A stretch of 64,000 nt of DNA, taken from the NCBI RefSeq assembly GCF_963576615.1, contig NC_088718.1, positions 27,999,377 through 28,063,376 on the forward strand. Reading direction: 5' to 3'. Below are positions 14,801 through 47,714 of this stretch, in pieces. Below the pieces are notes generated by a model, which worked only from the letters and a program-made list of their open reading frames with translations, did not search any database and had not been told where the DNA came from. Position 1 is the stretch's first letter. Every line of letters begins with the position of its first letter. This stretch comes from Watersipora subatra (taxonomy: Eukaryota; Bryozoa; Gymnolaemata; Cheilostomatida; Watersiporidae). The position numbers and the translations under genes were made by a program.

Positions 14801-15118
14801 TAGACAGCAAAGAAAAAGAAAAGGTAGAGAAATATCTCCCTCTTGGAGAAGAGATTGAAAAATGCTGGGATGTAAGAACAACTGTAATCCCAGTAGTCAT
14901 TGGGGCACTTGGCGCAATAACACCGGCGCATAAAATGTGGCTTGCCCAAATACCAACAGCAATCAACTCAGGTGAGTTGCAGAAAAGTGTGCTACTGGGA
15001 ACAGCTAAGATCTTGAGGCGAGTGCTTAAACTCCCAGGTCTCTGGTAGGAGACCCAAGTTAGAGCAGAAACTACTACCACCCATACGGGTTAACCGGGGT
15101 GAGGAAACAAAAAAAATG
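11895..15118 (+). mobile_element. R4/Dong-like non-LTR retrotransposon, near full length
   Basis: A single broken frame of about 1,050 codons occupies nearly the whole element. It begins right at the (TA)n tract and ends in a short 3-prime UTR (GGAGACCCAAG, GGTGAGGAAAC) and an A-rich tail followed by GTATATATAAC. The reverse transcriptase is followed by a CCHC finger and a restriction-like endonuclease. That order places it in the R2/R4 branch of LINEs, not among apurinic-endonuclease LINEs. A second, truncated 3-prime tail of the same family lies at 57966-58053 and also abuts a TA-rich tract. Confidence 0.85.
11903..15048 (+). pseudogene. R4/Dong-like reverse transcriptase-endonuclease, disabled
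   Basis: Reading order: N-terminal region starting ATG 11903, which passes into GYMGRMRQLW and resembles the usual start of RLE-type LINE proteins; reverse transcriptase from about 12860 (KNYRPITCLPATWKLLSG); motif A around 13321; the YMDD box with its aspartates at 13624-13629; a CCHC finger from 14473 (CRLC, then H and C); and the endonuclease motif PDIVVVDK with TIIDIAVP near 14724-14790. Breaks: TGA 11969-11971, TAG 12482-12484, TAA 12590-12592, a one-base frameshift in the A-run near 12795, and TAG 13210-13212. The motif A aspartate is also replaced by glycine (GGC at 13321-13323), so the enzyme would be inactive even with the frame open. The 13213-15048 part is intact. Confidence 0.9.
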
Positions 15119-18100
15119 TATATATAACTGTCATATTCGGTTTAAGTAGTTTTAAATTATCAGTTGAGACTTGGAGTTGTCATCTTCCTTTGGACAACTT
15201 CTATGTATTTGCTAGATCACTTTGGGCCGTTTATGCTGTGTTAGGGTGTTGGTACCTATCATCCAGTGTATATTGCATGAAATACTACTCTACTGGTAGT
15301 AAAAATATTACGGAATCGGTAGTATGACCTCACGATATACTACCTATGCAGTTGATATGAAAGAATTCGCTATAAATTAGTTATCCGTAACTGAAATTAA
15401 TCGGTGTTTAAAATTCTCTACATATCACAATATTCCACAGCTCGCTGAGCATGCGAGAGAAAGATAGTCGTTGGCTGTTATTATTATTATTACATAATAT
15501 TATTAAGCAGAGCTTAATAATATTACGGTGTGAACCTTATAGCTATTACATTGTGGGATGCGCGATTCAATATAAAAATGGCTTTAATTATGAAAATATG
15601 TTATAACTGTAATTTACCTTTTTATCAGTGATCGCCCACTGCAGACTGGTCACTCCTTCTTGGATGTCCACAGCCTGCCGTGACCAGGCACGGATTTTGA
15701 TAGTAAAGATGCAGGACGATCACCGTCTCGTGGAAGCGGCCTTCACCGGTCGAGAGTCCATCCCAAAAGGAAGAAGGATAGTTCGAATCTCCCGGTTAGA
15801 TGTTGTATCTGAAGACCAACGAGTGCAAGGACTGTGACAGGGGGAGGTTATCAGCACTGCCCCTATTAAGAGAAATAACTCACGCTATACCAATGTGACG
15901 TAGGTCAGCTACGCAATGTTATTGGTCGTACTAATCGTGCCAAATACACTATAGCGAATGCCAACGTGGATTACAAGATGGCGGATCCAAACCATAATGC
16001 AATTTCCTACGCAGTTCCGACTTAGATAATGCAAAGGTCGAATTTCCCAGCAATGAGGAGATAACTCCTTTTCGGTAAGCAGAAACTGACAAAACGAGAT
16101 ATAACACAGTGATTATCCAAGTGCGAATACTACAGATAACGTAGTAAGCCTCAATCTATCAGAACGCATACGTATAAAACAACGATCTCTCAGGTATTAG
16201 TGCTGTTAGTCACTACTTAAACATTGGAGTACAGTGTCATGGACTTGTGCATGGGCTGTGTTAAAATAGGAAGGAAATTAAATTGGTCATGGATTTGAGT
16301 CTAACACGAAGGTAGTTTTGGGGTCGCGTTTCATGCTCATACTTATTATCTTAGAATCGCAAGGTTCTAACAAATTACAAAACTGAAAACTAAGAGACTT
16401 ACTGTGAACTAAACTACCACAGCAAGTAAGTATTCCAAGACAAGATATGATTGATAAATTGTTAAGTAAATAATCAATGTAGGTACAAGTTTGATAAGAA
16501 TAGTAGGCAATTGCTAGATTTTAACGAATAAAACGTAGGAATTTAAATTAATCGCTTTTTAGTAAAAGTCTTGTGACGTGCCTATGATGATGGTGAACTC
16601 TTTATTACTTAAAAATAATACTAAAACAGAAAAATGCCCCCGTTTTCGGGCCAAGATGAAAGGTTAATACTTGAGAGTGTATAAATACTATCTACAGTGT
16701 AATTGTTCCTGTACAGATTTTTACAGTGTTATAATGGTAAAAAATTGTAACGATAATATGATAATATATACAGAATGATGCTTGAAAATAAAGATTGTAT
16801 GAGTATTAGATTGGCAATTTTTGAGGTTTATATTCTATCATCTGGATTGAGTATTGTTAGAACATCAGTCTTTTCGTGAGATTAAAGAACGAAAATGCTG
16901 ATGTTACTAGGTGACGTGGCTAGTGAAATTAGTATTTGATTTTAATGGATTCAACCGAAATCATGAATAAAATTTCTTATTTGTTAACAAATTTTAATAA
17001 TTCAAGTAAAAGATACTCGGAGTACGATGTACCGTTTGGTAGCCTACTTTGTGTATATATATTATCATTATTATTCTCAAAAGTACTAATCTTGCATTTT
17101 ATCTTGTATTTTATTCCTTCTAAAAATCTTATTGCCAAAATTTAATACTCGTTTTTAATCATAATTAATTATATTATGTAGGTAGTGGCTCTCTTTTTAC
17201 TTTCTACTAACGCTCTCGGTGTGTGGGCTAAAACAGGCCCGGGTTTAGATATCGCCTTATAGAAAAAATACAAACCTGTATATAGTGAATGAAGAGCAGA
17301 GACTAAGCTATTCGATGGTACCAAGGACATTAAAATTAGAACAACGGTCGCCGAGTTGCAGACGTTTGAAGATCGCCATTATAACTCTATATACTAGAAA
17401 CTAATTGGTAACCGCGTTGTGTACTCGTTACTAACCAAAAAACGCCACGTATATTTCCTGTTTAAGTACCTATTGACTGTATATTGTTTTGAGCATTCTC
17501 CCGATTGGCTGTTTTTAGAAATACTGGATCCTGATTAATCAATACTGCATCTGTTTTCTTGTTTTCTCAGTGGCTATCGTTTGATGATGCAGTCCAGCCA
17601 ATCAGAGTAAATTGATATGTATAATACATGTATAATCAGCTGCTCTTGTAAAATAGAATGAGAATATGTGTGAACCTCATAAAATTCCCAACTCTCTCGC
17701 TCTACTTAGTAGATTAGATTTTGCTTTGTACTGCTCCATGTGCATGGTCTAGAGTTGGACCAAACATCTAAATTATTATAGGACTAGGTTAGTAAAGATA
17801 ATAGCCAGGATCTAGGCGGTACTTCTGCAGTAGGAATAACCCGATGAGCAGTGAACGGATTGTCCTCGTCGTCCCCAACACTAGTTTTATTGAGCAGTGG
17901 GCGGGCACACCCCACTCAATAATTGGCAAACCATGACTAGAGAGGCCCATTTGCACTTAGTGCTAGACTGTGGCTGGAGTAGCCCATCTGGGAACAAGCA
18001 TAGTGGGCAGGATCTAGCCCCCCGTTTGTAGGCGAAACTCTGGCAAGACTTGATTAGGTCTACCAAAAGACTGTGGTTAAGCAAATGAGAGGTAAAGTTA

Positions 18101-18777
18101 CAAATTTAGCTATAGACCAAGACTCTGTTAAAATTCCCATATACATATTCTACCTGTTGTGAACGAGCCTGTGATCCATAAAAACGATAAGAATATAAAA
18201 TAGATAGAAGAAAGTTTAGTTTGAGTTATATCTATTTTTATTTTCTTGTAAATAAAAAAGGATTAAGAATAAAGTTCAATTAATATAATTTTCTGAACAG
18301 TGAACAGAACAGGGAACACGACTGTTGGGTTAGTGAGAACTGTCTGTCTGCAGTGAACCTGTGATTCCGTTTTGGTAAAACAATCAATTATTTCATTGTC
18401 CTCATCGGGGGATTTTGTCATAAAATATTATTCTTTGCCCTGATTCTGATTTTTTTTGTATATTTTTTATATTTTGTAACATACATACAGCATATAGGGC
18501 CTATAATTTGTATAGTTGCAAATCGCTCCTATGGCCACCCTTCAGATAGTAACACTATTATTAATTGGCAGTTTAATGCTGGTTTATCTTTTTTGTCTTC
18601 AAATAATAAACATCAATTTCATGGCAGTCTATTGTCAATACCTCAGCTAAGTAGAGGCCCAACCTTATTTTGATTTGGACATGGTTTTTGAGCAATGTTT
18701 ACTGTGTCTTAGATATTGAATAGTCAGTTTGAGTACAAACTGACAGTTGACCCGTCATTGCTTCTATTTTAATAGTT
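15119..18777. other. No gene recognised; upstream region of the next gene
   Basis: Holds short palindromes (for example TAATATTATTAAGC at about 15497-15520) and a less AT-rich patch at 15628-15850. That patch contains a B-box-like GTTCGAATC but no matching A box. No exon, transposon end or RNA gene could be supported. Confidence 0.5.
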
Positions 18778-21700
18778 ATGACAAAAGAAATGAAGCAATG
18801 CATATACTACGGTTGTGATGGAGTGAGTCAAGGGGCAGCCAAGAATTGTGCGAAGTGTGGTAAGTTTTATATAATTGCACTATAGACATTATCATCATGT
18901 GAAATCACACTGTTCTGAATTCTATTAGACTGTGCTCGCATTGGCCAAACCATAAGTCACCCATGAAAGTTTGAATTATAAAAATGTATTTGAATTCAAA
19001 ACTAATCTGTCTCGGAGGTATAGTATCGTTATCTCACATTGTCACATTTATAGAGATCAGCTTTCCCCAAACTAATAGTTACACATTTCTGGCGCTCTTC
19101 TCAGTTTGCCTAATATTGTTAACAGTAAAAATATAATCACCGCTTCACTGATTGCCATGTTATTAATTTGATCATTGCTGTTGTAGGGAGGAAGATACCA
19201 AGACCAGGCTGGAAAATGAAGATGGAGGAGGCAAGAAAAGAAGCGGCAGAAAGAAGGGAAGGCTTTCGAAATGAGAAGAGTTTGAGGAGCAGATGGAATG
19301 CTATGGAGAAGCTACTAATAGCTGTGAGCATGATTGAGATACAAATGGTCAAAACACTAGCTTTACTGTAAAATGGGTTTCACTACTTATTCTCTAGCAA
19401 GTATGAGTACAGTCTAGAAATTCTGCTTGTATTGTATCTCCACATACATTGGGCACACCTTTTACAATCATGTACAAACATCGGATCCTTTTTGTTAGGA
19501 TGCTAATGCTGAAGGCTACGGTCTTAACATCACACTCACAGCTTGGATGCCTGGCAAGGTACAGGTATATTCCAATTGTGAGTCAGCGGCTTGCCTTGAC
19601 TAGCTCAAACAAGCGATATCGATGAGGGCTGGAATCAAATATACAGAACAGATGAAAGGTATAAGTGATTTATTTGTCTCCCACATTAAAGGTTTTTTCT
19701 TCCAAAAAAATTGAAGATGCATCGTTGAATGATCTAGTTGTGGTGGCTGCACAGTTTGTAGCAAACAAGAAATATTCACCATGATTTATGCAGTCTATAA
19801 ACACAACCGCTAACAACTATTATATGTTATGGAACACGCATGCATGCAAATGTTGATGCGATTATTCTGCCAAATTTATACGATTTCTGTTCTATGACAT
19901 ATTATTTGCAGATGATATGTTTGTGCCTATACAGGGTGAATCTCCTGAGCTTTTTGAACTAAAAGAATGGGCTAAGATTCGCTACAACTCGTCAGCACTA
20001 CCACAGACTACTGGTAAGCAGCAACATAGCCCAACCATATTAGTCATCTAAGACCTCAATCAAAGTCTGCGAGGAAATAGGGTTAAAAGTTTGTGATTGG
20101 TAACAGCACTTTTATTGCTTATTATATTGGCATCTCATTCAGATGCTCAATATTTGTGTATTATGATAGTCTAAGCCCTCAGACTTCAAACGTGTGGGGT
20201 TGTTGGTGCCTACTATTCAATTCCTCTCCTCCTGGATAGGCGGCAACTCCAATAAAAAACCATTTCATTGCTATGGCCTAAATGAGCTTCCCCATTATAA
20301 TTATACAGAAGAACAAAAAGCAGAAGAACCAGCAGCAGAGGAACCAGCAGAACCAGCAGCAGAGGAACAGGCAGAACCAGGAAGAGCAGCAGAGGAACCA
20401 GCAGAACAACAATCAGCAGGAGAGTCAGCGATAGAAGGACCGGCCATGCTAGATGAGACTGGGCGATGGGTGCCATTGCAGGAACTGCAGCTTGAAGATA
20501 TTCTCAGTAAAATCTCAACACCATGTGCAATACCGGGTTGCCATTGTCATCAGTCAATAGGTGTTCTGCTTATGATACATTTGTTGTCACATTTGAATAC
20601 TGTAGAAAGTACTGAAACCTGAAACAAGTTATGTTGCTGACACCAGTTGGATAGTGGGTGTCAGCGACACCATCTTTTTGAAGTCTGAGTATTTGAAAAA
20701 ACCTGTTATCTGTGTCCAAAAAGTATATGCTTGTCATATCAAAAAGCTTAATATTTTGATACTATGTGCACTCATACGTTAGACTGCAGACCGTGTTTAG
20801 TCTGTAGGTCAACTTTGATGTTTCATGGCATGTATTAGGCCATTCACTGTTAATTATTAGTGTACTACCATGTTGCTGTTAAAGAAAATGATGAGACCTA
20901 ATGTTTTCAAAACAGTTCCATTTGTAGTATGATTATACTTTCAAAATACATTCAGCCCAAGAGTCAACTGATAAGATCTGCGTGTCACTACGCAACTTTC
21001 TTATGATCAGTATTACATTTATGTATATATTGGATCAATTTGTTCTAATTTGCCTATACTTTTTATTTTGTAAGTTGCAGATCACAGGCAGATGGCAGAA
21101 GAAGACACAGATATGACAGAAGAGCCAACAGGAGAAAATTTTGACAGAGGTGAGAATAACTCCTAATTTTACCAAACCTATCTTAGGAACAATGGTTTGC
21201 AAAAACTTGTCTACCAAAGCAGGTCTCCTGGGAAAAAAGTCATGTGATCTGCTGTTAACTGTGGTTTAAATTATATTCTTAGGTGAAGAATGAAAGCTTG
21301 ACCAAGGAGATGAAGGCTCGAGTGAGAGGCGTAAGCGACCAAACACAGAAAACCATGAAAACAAGGTGATTGTGGAACAGTCAAAATTTAGAAGGGGGAG
21401 AGAGTCCCAAACATGAGGAATTGTTTTTTTACAATGAAGTGACAAGCATGTTATATGGCAGGGGACAGCTTGAAATTTTGTTAATATTATTTTATCTATC
21501 CACCCCTTGGTAAAATTGCTGCTTGGTTTTCTCTTATCACCTGACCGTTTAAAAACAGGAGGCCTGTACCTCAAATTTAAAATTCTTGTTAGTTGATAAA
21601 CCAAAGCAAAGCAGTGGAAAGGAGCAAAGAAAGAAATGGAGCTGCAGAGAAAGCAAGAGGACCAAAATGTCTGCTGACAATGAACAAGGAAGTGAGTTTA

Positions 21701-22318
21701 GAACTTTAAAGCCCTAGTAGGGAATGGGGAAGGTATACTTTATGTAGAATATGAATCATTCTAAGGATTTGCTGAATACCATTGTATCGTATGTATTGAT
21801 GCATTTCACTTAGCATTCCACTAGTGGAAGTTAAAATGCAGTGCAAATTCCACTTGCATTACAAGTGGCCTCAGCCCTGTATTGTAATGAGTACCTCTAA
21901 AATAAGCTAAGGCGACTCTATTTCATTTTGGATCATGTTGGGTAATGTGACAGATTTTGGTGGGATAACGAAATTCTATCTATTTTTATCTCATGCTTGT
22001 TTGGGCAAAGTTCCTTGGAAGGATGTTCATCTCTATGTGTCATACTCAACATAACAATTTTGTAGTGGAACAACTTACACGCTGCTCAGTCAGAGTCCGC
22101 CACTTCCCTGACGACAACCACACAGAGTAAGTTATGAAGATATATTCTATTACATCATCTATGCTACTATTAGTCTGCTGATTTTTTTATATCTGTAAGT
22201 AGACTGAGTTGAACGAAAAAACTTAAAGACAATGCTACATCTACCTACCTGTGTAATACATTGGCCTGACATTCACATATTATACATCATACATTATGTT
22301 TGCAGGTTTAACAACTAG
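18778..22318 (+). CDS. Unrecognised ten-exon gene, zinc-finger-like N-terminus
   Basis: I do not recognise this gene. Ten exons join in phase: 18778-18859, 19187-19323, 19499-19558 (or 19564), 19935-20013, 20309-20506, 21081-21149, 21283-21365, 21607-21691, 22066-22126 and 22306-22318, with GT-AG introns and about 288 codons. The N-terminus has four cysteines in CIYYGC and CAKCGRKIPRPGW, like a small zinc-binding knuckle. A basic helix follows (EEARKEAAERREG), then an ITLTAWMPGK segment. Exon 5 is a Glu/Ala/Pro repeat and exon 7 a basic, nuclear-signal-like SSERRKRPNTENHENK. A nuclear role is inference. Exon 7 carries an in-frame TGA (21291-21293), so this copy may be a pseudogene unless the acceptor differs. 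It runs tail-to-tail with the KDZ gene. Confidence 0.5.
20155..20225 (+). repeat. Dispersed ~70-bp repeat, copy 1
   Basis: Contains TATTTGTGTA, GTCTAAGCC, TCAGACTT, CGTGTGG and GGTGCCTACTATTCAA. The inverted counterpart at 39996-40078 matches over about 70 bases, and a shorter inverted counterpart lies at 20632-20692. It sits in intron 4 of the 18778-22318 gene. Confidence 0.7.
20632..20692 (-). repeat. Dispersed repeat, copy 2 (inverted)
   Basis: Contains AGTTGGATAGTGGG, an ACCATC block and GAAGTCTGAG, matching the copies at 20155 (inverted) and 39996 (same strand). Copies 1 and 2 bracket exon 5 (20309-20506) of the surrounding gene. Confidence 0.6.
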
Positions 22319-22674
22319 TTTTGTTCGCTATCAACGGAGCGATCGAAAATTAGCCAATTGAGTACAATTGGCACAGCTATAGCCAGCTCGGCTAACAGGA
22401 TCAAATTTGGCACAGTTGACACTGTCTTGGCTATTAACGACAAAGTAGGCTCGATTATTAAGGCTATACTAGGCTCCGCTAAAACCAGGCGAGTTATTGC
22501 TTATGCTCGTATACAGAACCTGAGTTACATACGCATGACCTTAAAGCATATATAAAGAAAGAAATGAGCAAAACCAACCAGAGCACCTGGAAGTTTAACC
22601 CCATGCAGTTATACGTTTGTCGCATATTTAACTGTATCATTATATATTTACTGATAAATATATACTTTCATTGC

Positions 22675-22748
22675 CTCTGTTTATTGATGATATTTAAACA
22701 AAATCATGTTCGTTTGGGCACCGGGCTGGTCTGCAAAATCAGAGAATT
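22675..22748 (+). repeat. Direct repeat pair, left copy
   Basis: A block with GATGATATTTAAACAAAATC, CGGGCTG and GCAAAATCAGAGAATTCA recurs at 23033-23106 in the same orientation, 358 bases downstream, with a few mismatches. It lies in the gap between the two tail-to-tail genes. Confidence 0.85.
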
Positions 22749-23032
22749 CAACAAACCCAATCATAGAGCCGTGAACTCGAAACTATCAGTCATACACATA
22801 TCAGACATGCTGATTTCAAATATGCTCTCATAGTTTGTGTGCATGTAATAGTTTAGCCCGAGTAACTGTTTAATATCGTAATCGTCTCCCTACACTGCTT
22901 AAATTGATCCCAGACAAATTGACACGTAACTAGCCAACCGCAACTATGAGGATAGTTTGATCATTGGTTTTGGTATTCTGTCAAGATGATTGATGGAAGC
23001 GGCAACAGAAGATATTGGTAATATTCTTCTGG

Positions 23033-23106
23033 CTCTGATTAATGATGATATTTAAACAAAATCATATTTGTTTGGGCGCCGGGCTGCTCTGCAAAATCAG
23101 AGAATT
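23033..23106 (+). repeat. Direct repeat pair, right copy
   Basis: Second copy of the block at 22675-22748. No terminal features of an LTR were seen on either copy. Confidence 0.85.
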
Positions 23107-23580
23107 CACAAGTTAAAAAGGACTAAAACTATAGCCTTGGACAAGATCGTATATTTTTGAGCACTGAAATTATTTTTGAGATAAAAGTATTTTATCGTAC
23201 TATCAACTATATCGAGATCAATGGTCAACTCGAGATGGTCAATGGTCGAGATCAACTCTTCTTTTATACAATATTGATACATGTATTTTACAATAACAAT
23301 ATTTTTATAATAACAGTCTGCCGATTTACACTACAATCATACCAAACGTTGAAATTAAAAAGTTGAAGGTTCATTGCAAAGCAGACAAGAGGTGACTGCG
23401 ACTATCTATACATGTACATTACAAAAGCTGACAATGGTATGTGAAAGCTTGCTGTATCAATGTTGGCAATTGCGTACTAGCGACAAATTGTATTTTGTTC
23501 TATCCTATCATGCCTTCATTATTTGTGATCAATTGTCATCGACATCACTCTCTAATTCTGGCTCCTCAAACTCTACATTA

Positions 23581-26500
23581 TCATCTACATCTGGCTGGCC
23601 AATCTGAATTAGCAAGCAATCTGATTTTGAAAACAAGCTCCTTAGTCAACCCAGACTTATCCTGCCCTGTTTCTAACTTATCATTGATGTATTCAATGAG
23701 GTTGTCTCTCTCTGTAAGTAGTACTTCTACTTCTTCATAACATCTATTGATCCTACAATAATAAATACCAATTAATAGAGAAGAATAAGCAGGTTGCCAA
23801 AGCAATATGGAAAAAAAACAATGGAGGAAACTGCAATAGAACACCTCATCTCTCCTGGTGTAAAAAGTACACATTTTTAGGGAAGGGAAAGACTTTCAAG
23901 CTGTATGAAGTTTATTTTCTATGTGAACTGCTGGCCACCCTCTGTTCCTTCCAAAATTATGCACTTTTCAAACTCACCGATGGTGAAGATCCACTGCTGC
24001 TAGCAATCCTGGACTGATTTCGAGTGCTGCAACCATCCAAGGAAAATATAGGGTGTCCTGGACTTGGAGAAGTTCCTTCTTGCTTACTTTCATTCCTTTT
24101 TTTCTACCTGTTCAAAATGATGAGATGATATTTCAACAACTATGATCATAATCATTCTGACCCATCATATATAAATATAAGTACATTGTACTAACTAGCT
24201 AATTTTCCTTAAAACTCAAACATTTTGATATGAAATTTACCACAATGATTACCTGACAGATACTTGTCCACCTCACTTTCAAACTGCCCTTTGACTTTGG
24301 TCAACATGTCGCGGTGTCTTTTTCTGGTCTTGGAAGAATCTGAAACAATAACAATATTCATAGCTTAAGTTGAGAGTAAAAACAGTTTTTCAACGCAGCC
24401 ATTGGAATTGTCTGTAGATCCAGCAGAAGCTTTGACCAGGGAAGCCATGGTTATATTTCAGCTCCTCATGATAATAATATTTAGTAAAACATTGTGAAGT
24501 TGCTTGAGTCAGTAGTTCTTTGGCCAAAGAATTTGTTTCTGCCATTGTTCCAGGCTTTAAAGTAGACTTTTGGGCCAGAAATCTTTTTCTGTAGTTTCAT
24601 CGCTGCACATGACTGAGGTCTACTCTTTTGAAAAAGTGGAGTTATTGGCTAACTTTTTGAACTAAACATGGTTTGGGACCTAACCTCACAGTCAAGGGTA
24701 GGCAGCTCAACATACCGTAAAACCTCTAATTGAACGACATGGCGCTCTATTTTCCAACTCTTCTTTTAAGGTGGCGGTCAATGAGACGCGGCGGTCAATA
24801 AGAGGCGGCGTTCAAATAGAGGCTGGCGGTGAATTTTTCAATCTTTCTCTCAGGGTGACAGTCAATTGGAGGTGGTGTTCAAATACAGGTGGCGTTCAAA
24901 TAGAGGCAGCGTTCAAATAGAGGTTCTATGGTAACTTATGAAAAATATTGAATATCAATTTGCATGTGTACCACTGATTTCAATGGATTAAAACTTCTGT
25001 CAAAAAGTACATTATTACCTGGGTCACTAAATATACTTGATACTAATATTTTGTAGCGACAGGCAAGCTCCTCCATCTTCCGCTCCTGTGGTGTTATATC
25101 GCCTAGAAAATAATACAAAAAATAAACTAATTTACATTTCCATCGGTGGGAAAACTACAAAAAAGCAAAATAATTATTTTTGCTGTAATGGGACTGGACT
25201 GGGTACTGGATTTTTTGGTTTTCTGTACTGTGAACCCTGAACGAATGCAACCAATTGAACCGTATTGCAAATGCCAACATAGTTATTACCTTCTCCAATC
25301 TTGGAATATTCCTCTCCTAGCTGTTCAATCTGAGCCTCACTCTTCTTCAAGTCTCCACACATCACCACAAACTGCTCCTCCATTTCCTTAATTTCTCTCT
25401 TCATCTACAAAATACAAGTATAGGTTGAACCTTCCCATTGGTTAGCCTGATTGAGGTATGAGTCCTGATGCAAGCTTCTGCCTATCATGCCTGGCATCAA
25501 AGTAATTAGTTCTGTTTCCCCCGGATGAAGATATGGTTCACAGCAATTATTTCAATCAGTAACAGAACCAGATACGGAACTTCTTCCATTTGTCATTTTC
25601 TAGACGTGAAATAGAAGTGTTAGTAACCAATACTCTTCCTTGGAAGCAAAGCTCATACCACAAATTCTGTTTACCAAATTACTATGTCTCAAATGAAATA
25701 CACCTTGTTACCTTGCTCAACTGTGCTGCAATCCACACTGGAAGTTCCAAAAGCTTGCGGCTATTCCAGGACTTAGCACTCTGAGTTATCCTTTCCCTAC
25801 GCGCTATTGCAGACAATGAAATGATAGGTATCCAAACATACACCACAGCATCATAACAACAGAAATTAGTCTCAATTTGCATGTATTGAGAGGTCAAGAA
25901 GTTCATTGTCTAAGTACTCTGTCTATTGAGAGAAGTTGCTGGCCTCCTTCCCCCTATTCCAGTCACACCCGCAGTCAATGTTATACATCAGTGTAGGTCA
26001 AAATTGGTAATCACAACAGTCCCAGACACCTGACCAGACACAATTCATAGACACATGAGAATCTGCTATCGAAATGACATAATGCTTACTTTCACATTGG
26101 TAGGATTCAGGTCAACCATCATCCACAATTAACCATAATCTTATGCCAAAACAACACCCTCCTCACTTTGAGTCAACCAAAATGACATTTCTCAAATGTG
26201 TGACAGAGAAAAGGTGAACACATCTAGTGCTTAGGGCAGTAATTGTTAGTTTGACATTTGAGTTGTCTGAATTTGTCACCTATATTATAGGTCGGGTTAG
26301 ACAATATGAAGTCCCTTGCCTGATAATATAGCTTGTCTGGGAATGTTGAGTGAATGAATGGTTGGTGAAACTCATGTCGGACAATGGTCAGTGCTAGCAA
26401 TGCCAACTGTTTAAATAACTTATGCGGAATTCATCAAATGGTCAGTCATGGGATGCTACAAAACGCACCTGCAGAATGAGAGTTTCGAGTGACAGGACCT

Positions 26501-29500
26501 AAACGTGAAAGGTAACTGTTAGCTTGTTCAAAGGTTTCTCCAGTTGAGCGACCAGCTCCCTTTACCACCTTACCACTCCATTTCATCTGAAAATACAATT
26601 GTTATAAAATTGTAATTCACTAACTGACATCGCTAAGGCCTGAGCCAACCACTGTGGGGGGTGGGAGAGAGTCTGGTGGCGTCGTAACATTTGTTGAAGT
26701 GAAAGTGGTTTTCCGCATTGCCTGTGCCAAAATCTTACATCAGTAGTTTATTTATGACTAAGCAAAAAAGAACTTTTTTCATGCAGGTTTTTGGAAGCAC
26801 TGTACAAATGTCTGAATATTTTTTATAAGTTATCTACTAAATTTAGAAACCAGGATTTCCTACTTGAGGGTAAACTTAAAATTATGCCAACAAGGGCTTT
26901 GGCAAAACTTGATGAATTATTGCTATATTATACCGTATAACAATAATCACCTGACATGACCACTGGTGTGATTTAGCATGCATTACGGATAACATTGGAG
27001 TTTGCTTTTTGGCTGTTTCCCCATCAAACTTCTGGAGCCAAGGGTAATACCTACACGCAACATCATAGGCAAAGAACTGTGCTGATGGAAACTGTTTCTA
27101 GAGAACAAAGTAAAAACAATGAATTGCGCCATGAACCATATGATATTTCATGTTTAAAGCAAAAGGTTAGGAAAATGACAGTTCCTTCAAGTACGCCTGG
27201 CCTAGATTTCACAACAAAATCTTTTTTTTATGATCATGGCATGTCAAACTTATGATTTGCAGCGTTAGGAGAGAGTTATGTTTATATATAGATGAAATAC
27301 AAACTGATACCTGAAGTATATATGGATACTGGAATATCTCTCCTCTCTTCATGTCCAGTCCTTTCAGGATAAACACGTGTCGACATGTTGCTAGCATGAG
27401 ACCGGTCTCATCTTTAGAAGAATGGGCCTTTCCACCGACTTTAGCATTTTTCAACTTTGTGTCCCCACATGAATTGTCAACAACCTTTCAAGAAAAACGT
27501 GATTGATGTGCTTATTTACAGTAGGAGGCCTGGAAGGAATGCACCGATTATTTAAAATTTTGGCATCTGACAATGATTGTATCAAAATTAGGAATAACTG
27601 TGTGCTCTTTCACAATCTATTACCAAGTTTAGATCAAATCCCAATGTCTTGTGTTGTACCTTCATATGAAAGATACAATCAACTCAAATTTCAATATGCA
27701 ATTTGCATCTTCAGTGGGGCTAAGAAATTGTAGGCGAGCTCATTCATCCGTAGCCTTGCTGAAACATCCGGCAATGGTGTCCAGTAATATAATACATTGT
27801 TAAAGTTCAATTGAAACACGCCATACCAGTAGAGTTTTAACTTATCTTGGGAGGGAGATTCAAAACTCAACAAATTATTGCTGTAAATATTGGGTATGCT
27901 GCTAGCAGTTTAAGCATAACATCTATACCAAAGCAACACCACAGGCCTTCTGCTATTTAATCCAACTAACAGCTAAATATTTGTGCAACCAAATAGTCTA
28001 ACACATCTAGGATGTGATTTGACTGTTGCAATTGGGATGAACTATATTTTATGGTACTCATGAGACGGAAAGTTAGTGCTATGTGTGAACCAAATGGAGC
28101 CATCAAATTTTAATTCACCTCTTGAACAGCTGTGCCTGATTTACTGCCTCTGAGTTTATCAACCTCTTTGTCAACATCAGTAGAGTCTAATGTGAGCTCA
28201 GACTAATAATCAATCTCAGTCACCCTAAAAATTATAGATAACACGGCTTATAGGTGCTATTTGAAAGAGAATCACAAGCGCCATACATGAATATTCTTTG
28301 GGAATTCGGGCAGTATAGGAGTACTTACCCTCCGGCTTTCTTATAGCGGTATAGCTTAGAGTTACCATCAACGTTAATGGTGTGTGGCCTTGTGCTACAG
28401 GCTGGACACTGTAGAAAATTATGTTTCTCACTCATTGCTAGTTCCTCCAACCTCTTCCACTCCCTCATGACACAATTGATAACTTCAGGCCTTACGTTGT
28501 ACATCTGTAAATAAATATGAAGTGCAAAATACATTGTGATCATCACCAATGTTAATATTAGTTTGAAGCTTGAAGACTACCCCAAATAGCTCAGAAATTG
28601 CCAGAAGTGTAACAATAGCATAGTTTAGGTGAGTTATACATCATTTGCTTTCCATCATTTATTAAGAATCAGAAGCTGTGAGATAAGCTCCTCATCTGAT
28701 ATTTTGGAAAAAAGCTGTACAAGTTATCGATGGCTCACATTTGCTTGTGTGCCAAATGTGAAAATGCTTCCTTTCCCAATTGAAATCGTTTTGGGGTACA
28801 CCCCTTGCAAATACTGGCATCATGCACTTGGTTAGAGATTTGTAACTGATAAGTAAACTGACATTCATTTTCAAAACTATACACACTTGGAAAATGAGGG
28901 GGGTTTGTTTGTGATCATGAGTTTAAAGAATAGAGAAAGCATAATATTATTATGCTTTATTATTCATCTTGAGGTGTTGACTGATGTTCTAAAAAAAGAA
29001 TCAAGGAGATCGACCAACCAGAAGCTGAGATATAGCCAGCCAAACACAGGTCTACCAAAAAAACATAAGTGTTTTGGTAATCATAAATATATGACGTATG
29101 AAATCGACTTGTGTGCCATTGGTCAATTAAGCTAACTAATGCGCTCTCCTATAACAATCACGGCGTTTTAATTGGTTTAATACCTGGAAGTATAGAACAA
29201 TCAAATTGGGCCTAACAATCATCGCTCCTAGAATTCCGAACCAGTCCCTCAGACGTGTAGATTAGTTTTAGCATAAAATAATTACTCGCATCTATTATTT
29301 CGCAACATTTCGCTATCTTGCTAGTTCAGCTCAGTTTTGCTGTTCTTCTACTTAGCTTCCCTATTCAGACTCATCTTTAGCATTGTTCAGATTTTTTTAA
29401 CTATAGCTAATAATTGGAATCAATTAAATCAATCATCAATCTCGGTTATCATTTGGAATTTTCTACAAATTATATTAGTTACATCATTTATTCTGTACGC

Positions 29501-31541
29501 AGTTATATTATTATTTTGTATAATATGCATTATGATTATTATATAAATCATAAAAAATAATCATAGATAAGATAATAGATCAATAGAAAAATCAAATCAA
29601 AAGTTATCGTTTTCTTTTCTTATAGCAAGAGCAGCACGGTCAGGTTAGTTTTTTAAGATTATGGCTGTAGTGAACTTACAGTCTGTTCATAGTGACGATA
29701 ATCATGAAAATCAACCGAACTCTGCAGTAGATACACAGTAGAAGAATGCTGCAGTAGATACACAGTAGAAAAATGATGAAGGAACAAAAAGTCCCATTCC
29801 TATTTCTTATTCTAAACAAACTGCAACTCGCGGATATCGCATATAGACTATACATGCGCCTTTCGTTGAACAGATGATCTTCGGAGCATATCCGTGGAGA
29901 TTGAGTTAAAATTTGAAGCACGATAGTCAAAATCTGCTCTTCTGTTTTTAAAAATCATGGCGAGGGGTTGTGGGCAAAAGCCTTTACCACACAATGTGTG
30001 GTTGATTTTTCTGAAAAACCAGAGCTAGTCTGTAAATTATTTAGTATCGCGAGAAGCGTTTCACATCTCGTAGCCAAAACAATCATTGGCCATCATTATA
30101 AATAACGGCGGTAAGGGTGCGCAACTCCGACACATGACCATTAAGTCGATTTTATACGTCACAGTTTTCGGGATTTTCGAAGGGTTTTCCTCTGATTCTT
30201 TATTAGGTAGACCTGTGTTTGGCTGGCTATATCTCAGCTTCTAGTGGGTCAATCTCCTTGATTCTTTTTTTAGAACATCAGTCAACACCTCAAGATAACT
30301 AATAAAGCATAATAATATTATGCTTTCTCTATTCTTTAATTAGCGTGCAAAGTTTACTACACACCTACACACAAAAAAGATCGATGAACCAGCACATTAC
30401 TCACATACCTGAAAACTCTTCTTCATGTTGAAGTTAACTGCGCTGGCTATAGTTGCATAACTAACTAAAGCATTGAAGTTAGTCATAGTAGACAACAAAT
30501 TCAAAACTTCAAATGAGAAGAAAACAAATTTATCTGGAAATAAAGGAAACAATCCGAGGGGCATTAACTGTATTGGGTCTTCCCTGATTGCGCATGTCAG
30601 ACAAACATAACAGGATAGATGCCTGAAACCTAAAATCGGAATGTATTGCCTATTTTTAGAAGGAAGACTTTGATATTATTTGGTTGGTCACAATTATACA
30701 CATGAACTGTCATTCAATTGATAAAAAAAGAGATGAAAGGAACAAAAACTGTGTGGTAAAACATGACACGACTAAACAAACATCATACTTTGAGCCTTGT
30801 GACTCTCGGAGCATCAAAAACTCTGGTATATGGATTGACTGGGCCGTTAACCACAATCATGAAACACCTGGTTATATACTATGTATCCACAAGAGGCTGT
30901 GGCATGGAGGGGAGTCCAACCTCACTATCATGAATGTTTATGCCTTTCAGCCGGCAAGATCATAAAGCCATGATGGGCCATACTTCAAACCACACACTTT
31001 ACAAGGATGTTTGTTAACACATTCGATTATGCAGTTTGGGTTTTGTCACGTCGCAGCCAACTTCAACAAGCCATTGTCCTGCATCACCAGTATAAACTCA
31101 ACTAACCCTGATTAATTATGTATATCTTTTGTTCATATGATTCACTCTCTGTTCCTAGACAATCCCGGCACTCAGTGCTTGAATAATGTGCTGATCTTTG
31201 ACCTAGGAGAAGCAATTATTAAGTAAATTAAAGCACAATAAATACAACGTCAATTGTTGGCGTCAATTGTTGGCGAACTATCCTAATGGCTTGAGCTCTT
31301 GATCTTAAGCCGCCAAATGTTGTGTTAAGAAGTCATAGGAGAGACAATTTTAAGCATCCAAATCAATGTTCTGGCAAGTTCTGACAAATAACAAAAATGC
31401 TACCTAAATCATGTACTGCAGTTATTATAGCCATTCCGTCTTGAAACAAACTGAACAATCTATCTCTGACCAAACCCCATTCCTCCTCACTAGTTTCTAT
31501 AAATGTCCTTCTTGTTTTTCTTGGCTCAGATTCTATATTAT
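23581..31541 (-). CDS. KDZ-family (Kyakuja-Dileera-Zisupton) transposase, thirteen exons
   Basis: Exons on the minus strand: 31541-31404, 30533-30409, 28504-28329, 28202-28119, 27484-27311, 27097-26951, 26586-26469, 25803-25712, 25404-25290, 25102-25019, 24339-24253, 24107-23978, 23752-23581. The first has no start codon, so at least one 5-prime exon is missing. KDZ hallmarks in order: CPAC with NVDGNSKLYRYKKAG; SKDETGL with CRHVFILKGLDMKRGE (first Asp); FAYDVACRYYPWL (second Asp); MHAKSHQWSCQ then KGAGRSTGETFEQ (Glu); ITQSAKSWNSRKLLELP. A charged, probably coiled-coil C-terminus follows. The last ten exons join in one uninterrupted frame of 401 codons including TGA. The join between exons 3 and 4 does not keep phase (two bases left over against none needed). 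That means one indel or a misread splice site. DNA transposition in the nucleus is the family role. Confidence 0.82.
24715..24931. mobile_element. 217-bp MITE with TA flanks in a KDZ intron
   Basis: Ends CCGTAAAACCTCTAATTGAACG and, on the minus strand, CCATAGAACCTCTATTTGAACG (each cut here at about 20 bases of match) are inverted copies flanked by TA (24713-24714, 24932-24933). The interior repeats GGCGTTCAAATAGAGG and GGCGGTCAAT several times. It lies between the exons at 25019 and 24339 of the KDZ gene. Confidence 0.65.
28927..30335. mobile_element. TTAA-flanked DNA transposon with ~200-bp inverted arms
   Basis: Begins AGAATAGAGAAAGCATAA and its other end is the inverted copy. TTAA lies at 28923-28926 and 30336-30339. 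Inverted similarity continues through AAAAGAATCAAGGAGAT, CTGAGATATAGCCAGCCAAA, the AGGTCTACC block and TGACGTAT followed by AAATCGACTT. TTAA duplications are known from piggyBac and Kolobok elements; the ends do not decide between them. It carries no recognisable transposase and lies in the KDZ intron between the exons at 30409 and 28504. Confidence 0.75.
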
Positions 31542-32380: not shown

Positions 32381-33505
32381 CAGTGAAACATGGATAACTC
32401 GCCCTCGGATGTAGCGAACACATGGTTAACTCGACTGGATTTGCTTGGTCCGTTCTCACGCAATGATAAATGGCTCTATATAACTCGAATTCAACACTGT
32501 TATAACGCACTGTTTTTTGCCCAACGGCTACCGAAACGGTTGCTATCGCTTTAGAAAATCACTTTATTCCAAGCCATAGAGGTAAACCTCAACTTTTCGT
32601 AATTCATAAGCGTCGTTATTACCTCCATCGGCAAAATATTTTTGTCAACGACTGTTCTAAAGGTTTGGTGAAATTTGATTTATACTGCTATACGATGAAT
32701 ACCACGGGCTAGCCGGGTCACGGGCGCAAGGATTTTCGCCAGGCACATACAAAACAAAAACAGCATGTTTTTGTTTTGTATTTGCGTGGCGAAAATCCTT
32801 GAGTGCGTGACCCGGCTAGCCCGTGATGAATAGTTTTCCGACGTTGATTCCGTGTTGAATTAACGTCGGAATGTTGAATGTTTAAAACGTCTTAAAAATT
32901 GTTGAAATCAAACGTATACTTTGTCTTAGCTAAAAAAAACTATTCATCGTTTGACCTAAACACAAAATACGTGTGTACATTCAATAAGTATCCATTCAAA
33001 AAGCGTGAGTGATATACAATGTACCGCAAAACCTAGTAAAACTTTTAATTGAACTACCTCGGAGTGTTGCTCTTAACGAATCCCAGGTAAAGTAAGGTAA
33101 TCTTTCCATAAACTTCAAGAAAGATCGGCAAAATTGATCATAGGTAAAACGCTCAAAAGAAAAAGATGTCTTTTCTTTGAGCATTTCAGCAACGATCAAG
33201 TTTTGCCAATGTCAATCTAAAAACGTCCTGGCAATAACATCACCTCAAACAACAAACCAATCTCAAGTGATAGAAAAATCTCTATACTTTTTGATAAAAA
33301 CGTTTTAAACTTTACATTAGAAGCATTTAATTTGAAACAAGCCATTTGTGCTTTTGATTTATATTATAGTTTGTATATGTTCATGTATCTACTAATAAAT
33401 AAGTAAATACATGGACTTGTGACAGTGCTCTGATAACTTGAACACTCTGATAATTCGAACACTTTTGCTCGGTCCCTTGAAGTTTGAGTTATCCGAGCTT
33501 CACTG
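32381..33505. mobile_element. pogo/Tigger-like non-autonomous transposon
   Basis: Ends CAGTGAAACATGGATAACTC and, on the minus strand, CAGTGAAGCTCGGATAACTC, flanked by TA at 32379-32380 and 33506-33507. This is the standard TA duplication and CAGTG terminus of the pogo/Tigger branch of Tc1/mariner. Copy 2 of the surrounding duplication reads GTAATATACAG at this point with a single TA and gives the empty site. No transposase is encoded. A fold-back insertion lies inside at 32703-32825. Confidence 0.88.
32703..32825. mobile_element. 123-bp fold-back element nested in the Tigger-like element
   Basis: Nearly the whole segment is an inverted repeat: CACGGGCTAGCCGGGTCACG at one end and its complement at the other. 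The arms continue through AAGGATTTTCGCCA and ACAAAACAAAAAC to a short loop. ATGAATA flanks it on both sides (32695-32701 and 32826-32832), a 7-8-bp target duplication. Confidence 0.8.
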
Positions 33506-35041: not shown

Positions 35042-36056
35042 TAGAGTTGCCCCAATTTTGGTATCGGAATCGGTATCGGTGCCGATATGGGTGTCAAGTA
35101 TCTGAATCGGAATCGGCCGATCTTTTCTTAAAAAATCTGAACCTTCCGATACTTTTTACAGATCAACCATTTAGCAGAAAACTGTATTTTAGCCTGCTAT
35201 ACTAATAAAAAATCATCAGCTGTAAGCTTCTTACTTTTACTTAATGAATTTCAGGCTTGCCACACAATTTATTTCATATCTATAGCCTGATCAACACAGC
35301 GAAGGAAGCTTTTTAGCCAGAACGTAAACAAAAAGTGTGGCATTTCCCAATCACAGCGACAGGATTTATTGCAGGCAATCACGAACAAGATAACAAAAAT
35401 GGGAGACAAGAACGCAGTGTAATATTTCTATTTGCTAGCATTACGAAAGTAATTTAAACAGTCGACGCATAAAGTTATCTATCACGCTCTTGTTCTTGAC
35501 GATACAATGGATTGTTTGTATTGTACAAAAAACGGTAACCCCAGTGGCGTATCGGTATGTAGCCTGTCCTCCAACATCTGTGGCAAGTGAATCCCCCTTC
35601 AGTACGCTTGGCTACATTGATTATGATGGAAGAAAGAGACGTCTTACTGAGATAATTGAATCACTAACGGTAATTAAAAGAAACATTGATTTGCTCTAAA
35701 CTTGTAAAGGCACAGCAGTTCATCCAACAATAGAAGAGGGACTTCGTTATCACAGATAGAACTGTACCACTAACATTAATTACCTTTATTTACAAATTAC
35801 AAGAAACATGGACTGTTTTGTTACTACATGCACGGTATGTCAGTATGTAAATATGTATATATATTTTTTCCATAAATGCAAACAAATAAATACAATAATA
35901 TTCATGTTTTTTTTGCATTATGTTTGTATTTGCATAATAAAATGAACAACTATCTATGCAACACAAAAGATCTGGGTCGGATTATTTTTCAATTAGGATC
36001 GGTATACCGGATCGGTATCTGAATCGGCTGGTGAATTTAGAATCGGGGCATCTCTA
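35042..36056 (+). mobile_element. hAT-type transposon with perfect 8-bp TSD
   Basis: Ends TAGAGTTGCCCCAATT and, on the minus strand, TAGAGATGCCCCGATT. CTTGTCTG lies directly outside both (35034-35041 and 36057-36064). Both subterminal regions are rich in GATCGGTAT and CGGAATCGG units, the usual arrangement of transposase-binding repeats. It contains the tail of an hAT transposase (35490-35699), so it is a deleted relic and not a MITE of unknown origin. Confidence 0.9.
35490..35699 (+). pseudogene. hAT transposase C-terminal dimerisation domain, relic
   Basis: From about 35550 the frame reads ACPPTSVASESPFSTLGYI, then GRKRRLTEIIESL and KRNIDLL, ending TAA. This is the hAT C-terminal dimerisation domain, whose usual form has PxTSxxSERxFSxxG, RRxRL and KxN. 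The Glu-Arg pair is Glu-Ser here. DNA-binding and catalytic parts are gone. Confidence 0.8.
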
Positions 36057-36614
36057 CTTGTCTGCCTGCTGGTCTGTGAAGGTATTCTAAAATATGGTCA
36101 CAGAGTGGTATGATTGCACCAGTGCATGGTTAGTTACATAGAATTGCCTCATATACTGCACAATTGATATAGTCCAGTGCATGTGATGCTGAATTGTTAA
36201 ATTTTTTTTAGTTTAGGAAACCAAAAGCAGAGCAGGATTTGACTGTTCCAAAAGATAGCTGTAATGTATGTCTTTAGAAATTCATTTTGTCGGAATGGCC
36301 AACCTTGCCAATACTCAATCAGCGTCAAATTTATTGGCAGCGACATTTGCCATTTACACATGTACTGTGTGCGTGGCAGTCTAAGGTGACCTAAAGGCTT
36401 TTAAACAACTATTTAACTTGGTTTTATATATAAGGTGATTATATCAATGTATTTCATACCTAGGTCCTAAACTATTACACAAGTGAATAGATGCATTATG
36501 TTATTAAATGTATTTTCTACAGACACAAGAAAAACAACTTCAACAAATAATTGTGGTTTTCATTGAGATTTGATAAATAACAATACATACATATTGATAA
36601 CTTAATAATAGGAT

Positions 36615-39600
36615 TTAGCTCTCATTTTCCTCATCATCATCCTCCTCATCTTCTCTCACACCCCTGTTAGTGCATTCTGTATTGGTGCAGCCACAAAGGT
36701 CGCAGCATGGTAAGTTGGCCATCTTACATGAGCATCTTTGGCGGCAACCATTTTTGTCGCACTTGCATTGTACCGTCTTCAGAACTTGTGGTGGTATGAC
36801 AGATTTCTGATACCAAGTTATTTCTAGAGTGTCTTCTTTAGTCATGTGCCAGCCATTATCTTGAGGTGGAGGAATGTTGGGCTTAAAAGAAATAAAGTCT
36901 ATATATGTGCGATGTTAATTCATACCATAAACAGCAATGGCTTTATATCAAATTGTTAGACAAGCATGTGAAAGCTTTTTATTAGCAGTCATAGGGTGTG
37001 TAGATGTTAGCAGGATAATAATGAAGCCATGTTGAAAAAGATTTATATAACACAAATCATTTGTTTTTCTTATACTAAAATTACATTGCACTGATAGGTT
37101 TATGTTTGAGGTGAGTTATTTCCCCCTGCCGAATAATTATGATCCATAATGAAGAGTCTCAAGTTGAGATTTATTAATAATCTAGTTCAGCGTCACTATG
37201 TTTGGGGTTGTTGTTTTGCCTCAAACTACAACTGAAACAGATTGTCAATCTCTATAGCGGAAGGCCACACAAATCACAACATATACCATACACCTTTTAT
37301 ACCTATTATTCTACACACTCTATACATACCACATCATGTTTCCTGCATAATCTGTTAAATAAAATCATGCTTTGCAGTGTTGAGTGTTTCACATGACAAA
37401 CAAATATCAAAGATAGAATACCTGTTCACACAGAGACTATAAAGCATTAACAATAATAATATTCTTAAAAAGAAATAGAATAGGAAATTTACCTCTCGGC
37501 GTCATATACATATTTATCATAGCAGGATTTATGGTACTTCAGCTCTCGAGCGACAGCATCACTCCAGCTAAACTCCCGCAAAATACGTTCATCTCCAAGG
37601 ATCTCTGCACAGTCCTGGAGTTTACCTTTGAAAAATAGCACAACCAATAGCACAACTCAAACATATACCATAAATCACAGGTTACCTTTAGTAGGTCAAA
37701 ATTGGATGATATCGCCATAATAATACTATGCCATAAAACCAACTAGATCAAATCAGCCATCACAGGTTAATTAAACATTCTTCATTGACATACTTGCAGT
37801 TTGGACTGGGTTTTTCAGAGTTTATCAATAGTAGTGGTTACACATCCAGTCTTGTACTTGCGTTCCTTCTGACACAGAATACATATTGGAGGTAAGATTG
37901 GTCGCTGGTTTGCCACTCGTTTTCTCTTAGCAGGCCTAGGTGTCTCCCCTATACCCTCATTTCCCAATTGAGATTCATTAATATTGACAGCTTGGTCTGT
38001 CTCTGGCTGTGGTGATATTACGCAAAATGTGCAAGCTTACATTCATTATTGCAAAGAATAGGTTTTTATTATGATGGAATGAAAGGCCAAGCTGGGGTGG
38101 CGGGTTCTCAACCAGGTAACTTGATAACACTGAGTCAGACCATTTTACACATACACACTAGACTTTTGTGTACTCTGCGTAAAACAGTTGCATCTCATAT
38201 ATAAATAAGCCTTAACCCTTTTGCGATACTGACGCTGGTGGGCAGAGCGACTATTATGTCACCACGCGAACGTTTTTTATAAACTGATTTCTGGTTAGAT
38301 TATTGTCTTTTTTTTATTTAATTTTTTTACCAATAGTAAACTACAATAGATTGGTTTCTGCTAGCAACAAAAAAAGCCGTTTTGAGGATCAAAAACGATC
38401 GTTTTTGTAATACTGAATGAGCGAAAAATCTGAAATGAAAATGTATTTAAATAAAATTGGGAATTTTGTTTATAGCTTGTTTCTGTTTTTTTCTGCTTTC
38501 TGAATGTTTTCTCAGAGTGACACAACTTTATTTTACTCTCATGGCGTCTTCCAAAGGCTATAAGCAAAGGAGATTGTTGGTTGAGATAGTATTACTCAAC
38601 TCACTTCAGTTCTCCTTTGAGCTGATTGTAATGTTTTCTCGTGAGTGAAATGGCTGTAGCATTTCTCATGGCAGCTGATAGTGATATCTTGAGAGGTGTT
38701 GGAACTGGTCGAAGATGATGATGCTCCTAGTCCCTTAGAAGATCGTTGCAAATAGAGTCTAGATAAACTCCTTTGCGGCTCAAGATAATAGTTAATATAT
38801 TGCTGAGCATATGACTCAGCAGTGCCGAGCCACTTTGATGATAAAACAATCACGTTGCAGTTGTCATTTTCTGATTTCAGACAGTGAAAAGCACATGAGG
38901 TAGCAGCCTTTTTCTTCATTTCAACTTGCAAACATGCATGCGGCTTACGCACTACTTTCTTTAATAATAACAAACCGGATTACTCATAGTAAAGCGGATT
39001 GTTTAACATGGCGTAGTAACTATAAAATCATGACTGCGCGTTGTGAAATAGTGCAACTATATTTTGTAACATTTTACTAGAAATGGCAAGTTTTCAGATT
39101 CCAAGAACTTTATTTTAGTTAATTTATGCTACATCAACCATTTTAAAATAATCAAAAAAGCTTCTGCTGGCCGTTTTCTGATATTTTACAATTCAGCATC
39201 ACATGCACTGGACTAATAAGGAAAGCGGAGCAACTCATTCAATATCCTGAGTCAACAATCACATTTAGTTATGAATATCAGAGCATAGCAATGAAACATT
39301 ATAAATTTTGAATGCGACTATGCTGCATTTTTTATTGTTAATGAGTTGCACTAAAAAAGGTTTCCAATCCCCCAACGTTTCCGATGTCTGAATTGCTTGA
39401 ATAAAAACAATGATAACTGAGTATGACTTAATTATTGAGTTTACCACAAGAATCTTGCTTGTTTTTCAAGGAGTGCGAAGAGCTAAGAGCTTTCTGGGTG
39501 GCCTCAATATCGATACACGTGTGGCTTGTGGCACTCTCTATATTGACACTATCCATATGTGCTGAAACATGAAACAAGTGGGTAAAAAGAGAAAATATTG

Positions 39601-39995: not shown

Positions 39996-40078
39996 TCATT
40001 TTGGAGTTGGATAGTGGGCACCATCAACTCCACACGTTTTAAGTCTGAGGCTTAGACTACACAAATATACATGTATGA
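39996..40078 (-). repeat. Dispersed ~70-bp repeat, copy 3 (inverted to copy 1)
   Basis: On the minus strand it reads TATTTGTGTAGTCTAAGCC, then TCAGACTTAAAACGTGTGG and GGTGCCCACTATCCAACTCC. It matches 20155-20225 except for an 8-base insertion there. It starts about 100 bases upstream of the ATG at 39899. Confidence 0.7.
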
Positions 40079-41063
40079 GCTTCAAATAAATAAATTTTCT
40101 GGTTGAAGGATATCAACTAGATATAGTGTAGAACATGTAAGCACTCCTTTAGAAACTAACACATTAAGAGTAGGGGATTGCGTGAGTGAATGCATAGAGT
40201 AACATGTAGTGAAATAGTTATTAGTATTATTTTATATAGGATTATTTTTCTAACTAATTTTTATATTTTAATTTACAGTATTCATTTAATATTTCATTTG
40301 AGGATTATCTATATATAATCACTGGCCTGGACTTGGGAGAGTTATATAATTCATTTATTCATACTTACTTATACTCTACTGTTCTACTGTATGTTGCTAA
40401 CTTTATTTTATAAATAACCTTTGTTTGTTTAACCATTTTGTTTTCTCTATCATTCACCGAACAAGTAAAAAGAGTTAGTTATGTTAATATCCATAACTAA
40501 CTACTACTAAACTTTACATTAAAGTTATTGTTTTTTATCAATTAATAAAAAACGAAGTAGGCTATGTTAATAACATACAGTACCAGTTCGTATGAAAAAT
40601 TAATTACTGATTAATTACTAAAATGAAAATAAACTATTACGATGCATCACTTCATTCAACACAAGCCTGCCTGCCCAAGGCCGTCCCTTGATTGATTTGT
40701 TACATTTAGATTTATGAATATTTTTAATTAATTAAAACAGAAATTTAAATCTTTCAGTAAAATTTATTTTATAAACAACTTTACAGTTAAATCTCTACCT
40801 TTGAATGTTGTAGTTTCGATATCCAGCTCAAACTTGATGTGCAAAAGTTAAAAATAATTATTCACTGATTACACTTCACTACCGCACCAGTCCAGCGTCA
40901 ATTCAATTACTATAAAAACATTGAATGCAACTCGCTAGAATAGAAACAAAACTGCATGAACAGCAAAATACCATAGAAACAAAATTGGCATAGATATGAA
41001 AAGAAAAGATAACTCTCATTAACAATTAACCAGTTTTAGCAATGATTCGATACTACGTGTGAA
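40079..41063. other. No gene seen
   Basis: AT-rich DNA between the repeat at 39996 and the P-type element. No exon or element end was recognised. Confidence 0.6.
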
Positions 41064-41865
41064 GTAGTGTTCAGTGTCGTATAGGGAGAGTTACGTCACC
41101 AACGGGGCCTATACAAACGCATCAAAAGTTCCAAGCAAACATCGGCCACGCCTACTTTTATATAGAGTTACAATGGACTGCACTTACCTGTCTTTGTTTA
41201 TCAGTTAATAAAACTACTTTGGGTAACCTTAGAGCCCTATCAAGTATATCACAAGAAAGCTCAGGTTTTGCTCTAACTCACATAGCAGTTGTAAAAATGA
41301 GAACTTCATATTTACAGGTTTTTTGCTACTTTATAGTAAATACCTTTTATTATCTGCACTAGAATGTCTTAGCTAAATTGTGTTTACTTGCAATTTCACA
41401 ACTTTGGGCGACCAAACAAACAATTAAATGTATTCACAATGATAATTATATTTATAATATCATCACTTGCCAATTTTTTTGTTCATAAAAATTATAAGCA
41501 GGCTTGTTTTATGCAAATTAATGGACAACCACAAATTTATTACGGACAAAGATTTCAACTAAACATGCAAGAAGTATGAGGTACAACGTAAAAATTGAAC
41601 AACTTTCCATAATAAAAACTGAATACTAAAAGGGCATATTATACTACATAGAAAATCTTTCATAGTAATGTTACAATAAAAATTATTAACTTCGAATAAA
41701 CAAGTCAAAGAAGCTAAGCTGTACTAGTACTATAGTAAGGTACGCCAACGTAGTATTTTGTGTGCAATGGCTGACTTGCACATGTTTATAACATATATAA
41801 ATATAATACTAGTCAACAAGAATGAGTACAGTAAAAATACAGAAAGCATCAAATTTCAACAACAC

Positions 41866-47332: not shown

Positions 47333-47714
47333 TATGATGAAGATGCTGTGTAAATCACAATTAAATTTAAAATTATAAAAAATAAAGGGGAAAAGTGTTG
47401 ACGCAAAGATCGAAATAATTCCACGCTGGCAGATAAACGGAATTTTGATTTTAGCCTGGTGTAAATCTAACTAGCTACAGATAAGATGCTCGTATTATAC
47501 ATGAAAAGAATCAGAAAATTATGACGATCTTTGTGGTATATAAAAAGGCTAAAAAAATGGTGATTTTGACTGTGTATACCCGGTAAGTCGTATTTTTGAT
47601 TCAATACCTTAATTTTCAACAAAACTTTATATTGCAAAGCGAGTTTGTTTGGAACTATCGAAAATGACGTAACTCCAGTTGGCGTAACTCTCCCTATATG
47701 ACACTGGTAGTATT

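Follow-up and report, generated by a model that had tools for sequence, protein, structure and literature searches.

Whether a transposase gene whose frame runs in phase through many introns is still an active mobile element, serves its host or is the remnant of a transposon is the question raised by a locus in the bryozoan Watersipora subatra. The gene lies in a stretch of 64,000 nucleotides, hereafter the window (contig NC_088718.1, positions 27,999,377 to 28,063,376; coordinates below are counted from its first letter). The initial annotation described it as a KDZ transposase gene of 13 exons, ten of them in perfect phase, and read the retained phase as a sign of recent activity or host use.

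On the minus strand, the gene model comprises 14 exons placed by eye between 31541 and 23529, one more than first counted. All 13 introns, which are 104 to 1904 nt long, have GT-AG borders, and the frame is carried over unbroken from exon to exon, except at a stop in exon 5 and at the end of exon 14. With splice sites scored by approximate weight matrices, the acceptor ranks first within the open frame in 8 of the 14 exons and second in the other 6; of the 13 donors, 10 rank first, two second and one third. Exon 1 (31404..31541), an open frame with acceptor and donor, begins in mid-codon, so that at least one further exon is to be expected on its 5' side; none was found in the list of open reading frames, inspected by eye, or by Pfam search. 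Together with exons 2 (31107..31202) and 3 (30409..30533) it lies outside the Pfam match described below, and the support for these three exons comes from splice sites and phase. The predicted chain continues through exons 4 (28329..28504), 5 (28119..28224), 6 (27311..27484), 7 (26951..27097), 8 (26469..26586), 9 (25712..25803), 10 (25290..25404), 11 (25019..25102), 12 (24253..24339) and 13 (23978..24107) to exon 14 (23529..23752), its splicing being that of a model derived from the sequence.

The identity of the gene is supported by the protein profile. With an X at the stop, the spliced model matches the KDZ profile of Pfam (PF18758) over positions 5-217 of 217, with 106.7 bits (E = 1.8e-30) where the cut-off is 26.6, and the part after the stop, taken alone, gives E = 8.5e-28. 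We placed the match on the exons from ~28378 in exon 4 to ~25763 in exon 9, within the span 28504-25712 for which the initial annotation had proposed a profile search; Pfam gave nothing for residues 1-161 of the model, which correspond to exons 1-3 and the beginning part of exon 4. Inside the match lie KDETG in exon 6, YDVAC in exon 7 and GE in exon 8, which we take to be the first Asp, second Asp and GE motifs, that is, the catalytic positions (Asp codons 27412-27410 and 27064-27062, Glu codon 26538-26536). The locus is a KDZ-superfamily (Kyakuja-Dileera-Zisupton) transposase gene, with at least 14 predicted exons, and the initial annotation was right about its multi-exon nature, strand and place. 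A comparison of a 205-residue part after the stop with solved structures gave four chains with E values up to 1, none of them significant (the best at 0.21), and pattern searches with 8-residue seeds returned 1 and 5 matches in viral_contigs and 22 in genome_contigs, with no confirmed relative among them, these viral, bacterial and archaeal collections having little bearing on animals.

The 585-codon body of the gene holds one in-frame stop, against 41 and 62 in its two alternative frames and a mean of 40.4 (minimum 25) after 1000 shuffles of the bases within exons, figures that are biased in favour of the model in that the 585 codons end at the frame end and open exons were selected by eye. 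Given this selection, the independent check is the Pfam match, which spans exons 4-9. A random-phase control (0 of 2000 with two or fewer stops) was set aside, since its count ran through the last exon beyond the offset in frame, so that the real chain would fail as well.

The single stop is an in-frame TAG at 28205-28203 on the minus strand, in exon 5, and all three motifs are encoded downstream of it. The initial annotation had let a frame of 401 codons start at 28202 and run across nine introns to 23581, with both Asp motifs and GE in frame; this frame is indeed there (400 amino acids and a stop), and so are KDETG, YDVAC and GE, the presumed motifs. Its start, in turn, proves to be the codon right after the TAG: exon 5, entered through the acceptor at 28224, is in phase with exon 4, and there is no phase break at 28202. 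That position makes a poor acceptor: it lies 22 nt past 28224, does not fit the phase of exon 4 and is outside the three best-scoring acceptors. Those three score 0.1 (28224), -2.5 (28186, out of phase) and -4.1 (28149, in phase). Splicing to the last, 75 nt downstream of 28224, would bypass the stop at a cost of 25 codons, the stop included, an in-frame escape that is possible but weak. Skipping exon 5 would shift the frame, as the exon is 106 nt long, and internal initiation would yield an incomplete catalytic core, since the sequence from the stop to the first Asp motif contains no methionine. Alternatively, the TAG could be allelic or result from faulty assembly.

A second lesion is found in exon 14, where the main frame ends near 23581 and an acidic stretch, DVDDNVEFEEPELESDVDDN, continues in another frame to a TGA at 23529. 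The stop near 23581 is thus probably not the original end of the protein, the acidic stretch being its likely former tail.

These two lesions bear directly on the suggestion of host use. A KDZ-derived gene domesticated by the bryozoan, with a stop that is artefactual or is avoided by splicing to 28149, would agree with a frame held across 13 introns with one stop in 585 codons and with the presence of an in-phase cryptic acceptor; moreover, fish F-box genes are reported to have captured the KDZ-derived cysteine-cluster domain CxC7, a precedent for parts of KDZ being put to use by a host (PMC12062965). However, the cryptic site has a score of -4.1, compared with 0.1 at 28224, and a maintained host gene is not expected to carry both a C-terminal frame offset and a nonsense codon ahead of the first Asp motif, so that host use is left unsupported. 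Nor does the retained phase speak for it, as the initial annotation had argued: a young transposon copy should retain phase anyway, and multi-exon structure is reported to belong to the Zisupton elements themselves (PMC9297572), which deprives exon number of value as evidence for domestication. We therefore regard a domesticated gene as highly improbable.

The amount of decay is small. About 5.5% of the single substitutions possible in the 585-codon body yield a stop, so that one stop is expected at ~1% neutral divergence, a rough figure derived from a single event, which fits a fairly young dead copy. The same low decay, together with the intact motifs downstream of the stop, would suit a transposon copy that is still active, with a stop that is heterozygous or due to sequencing error, but two separate lesions speak against this, as do element ends and target duplications that were not demonstrated and a probable insertion in intron 3. 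The insertion is a 1.4-kb stretch (28923..30339) with inverted arms of 141 nt, 95% complementary and each starting with TTAA, and it is probably a nested non-autonomous element. Current activity of this copy is accordingly very unlikely, and recent activity, the other half of what the initial annotation proposed, is compatible with ~1% divergence per stop as far as the family is concerned, without being demonstrated.

The surroundings are rich in transposon sequence, with a reverse transcriptase, TNP-like transposase domains and a weak hAT end. The reverse transcriptase (RVT_1, E = 1.4e-24, at ~13.1-13.8 kb, with a zf-RVT match below cut-off) sits within 11900-15100, presumably a non-LTR retrotransposon. 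At ~43.3-42.4 kb, TNP-like RNase H N-terminal (E = 4.8e-16) and GTP-binding-insertion (3.7e-10) domains lie between inverted ends of 27 nt (41072 and 47706). The 8-mers next to these ends, GTAGTGTT and GTAGTATT, are equal at 7 of 8 positions; RNase H C-terminal and THAP matches within 41072-47706 are weak and below cut-off. We assume that this is a P-element-type transposon. The hAT dimerisation-domain match at 35538-35687 on the plus strand (E = 0.0021) is also below cut-off.

Several further features were observed in the vicinity. A segment of 3,046 bp (36170-39215) has 33-nt inverted ends (97%) bracketing cysteine-rich open reading frames on the minus strand, one of which has a CXC-like, cysteine-rich end at 36914-36618. 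Just downstream of the KDZ gene lies a 79-nt direct repeat, 91% identical (22672-22750 and 23030-23108). Two 60-nt arms with 92% complementarity, spaced by 3 nt, form a foldback (32703-32825) in a region (32.2-33.8 kb) that has repeats in common with 1.6-2.2 kb. Weak matches below cut-off were seen to LRRNT (19506-19565, minus strand, E = 0.00027) and DUF7042 (20475-20669, plus strand, E = 0.0018). Neither a tRNA scan in its bacterial setting nor an Rfam search gave any hit.

A TET/JBP or cysteine-cluster partner for the transposase was not detected in six-frame Pfam scans of 15.3-25.0 and 31.5-41.4 kb, run at E up to 0.5 in one case and 0.1 in the others, settings under which a domain split over short exons could escape; the remaining matches in these two intervals are under the curated cut-offs, and beyond them Pfam coverage extended to the KDZ gene on the minus strand and to pieces near 13 and 43 kb. 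Inverted ends of the element beside exact duplications of 7-9 bp, sought at 12000-23500 on the left and 31600-52000 on the right in a scan blind to ends lacking inverted repeats, agreed at best in 12 of 16 positions, no better than five mononucleotide shuffles, which gave 12-14.

An inverted, gapped pair of sequences, 20119-20224 and 40003-40093, does flank the KDZ gene on both sides. With a gapped score of 93, against a maximum of 27 in 300 shuffles, the similarity is real, and a pattern built from both arms, with up to 3 mismatches allowed, has no further match in the window and none in viral_contigs. If the pair marked the ends of an element, this would be a large KDZ element of ~20 kb, holding further genes and later transposon insertions. 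As to a duplication beside the pair, one candidate was found, alike in 6 of 7 bases, which does not exceed chance, 300 random pairs of places giving a mean of 6.3 candidates. A third inverted stretch, 72% similar to the pair, lies at 20647-20689 among the 25 longest of 75 inverted pairs, which favours a dispersed sequence over element ends, and we consider it unlikely that the pair bounds the element.

Taken together, the locus is very probably a decayed, fairly young copy of a KDZ cut-and-paste DNA transposon lying among other transposons. Its ancestral gene, spliced from at least 14 exons, would once have encoded a transposase, whose mode of transposition is presumed from the KDZ family, whereas the present copy, read through its best-scoring splice sites, would no longer encode the full enzyme. 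The nonsense codon in exon 5, ahead of the catalytic motifs, would inactivate the copy, and the frame offset near the C-terminus probably removes the acidic tail; both its inactivity and the fairly recent onset of decay are what these lesions suggest. The resemblance to a host gene, with its many in-phase exons, is compatible with a broken mobile element. What has been gained is a corrected gene model and the identification of a lesion that was overlooked in the first reading from sequence alone.

The KDZ family is already known, and the copy described here is a further, slightly broken member of it. With the superfamily as defined by PF18758 it has in common the profile from 5 to 217 of 217 and the in-frame motifs taken as Asp, Asp and GE, and it departs from an intact KDZ transposase in the nonsense codon upstream of these motifs, which breaks the open frame. 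Cysteine-cluster domains accompany the family elsewhere, fish Zisupton reportedly carrying CxC7 (PMC12062965), and the genes listed for the sex locus of Hydractinia, a cnidarian, include a 'likely KDZ transposase' (PMC9926710). Target-site duplications are reported to measure 8 bp for Zisupton and a fungal Dileera element, and 7 bp for fungal Kyakuja, which has CA..TG ends and no inverted repeats (PMC12730594). A close parallel comes from Pristionchus nematodes, where Zisupton gene families are reported to have 18 and 31 exons and the elements, according to the authors, superficially resemble typical protein-coding genes (PMC9297572). For Pristionchus pacificus that study gives evidence of terminal inverted repeats and reports no target-site duplications, whereas neither inverted repeats nor duplications are demonstrated for the bryozoan copy; both have in common a multi-exonic transposase gene, here of at least 14 predicted exons (PMC9297572).
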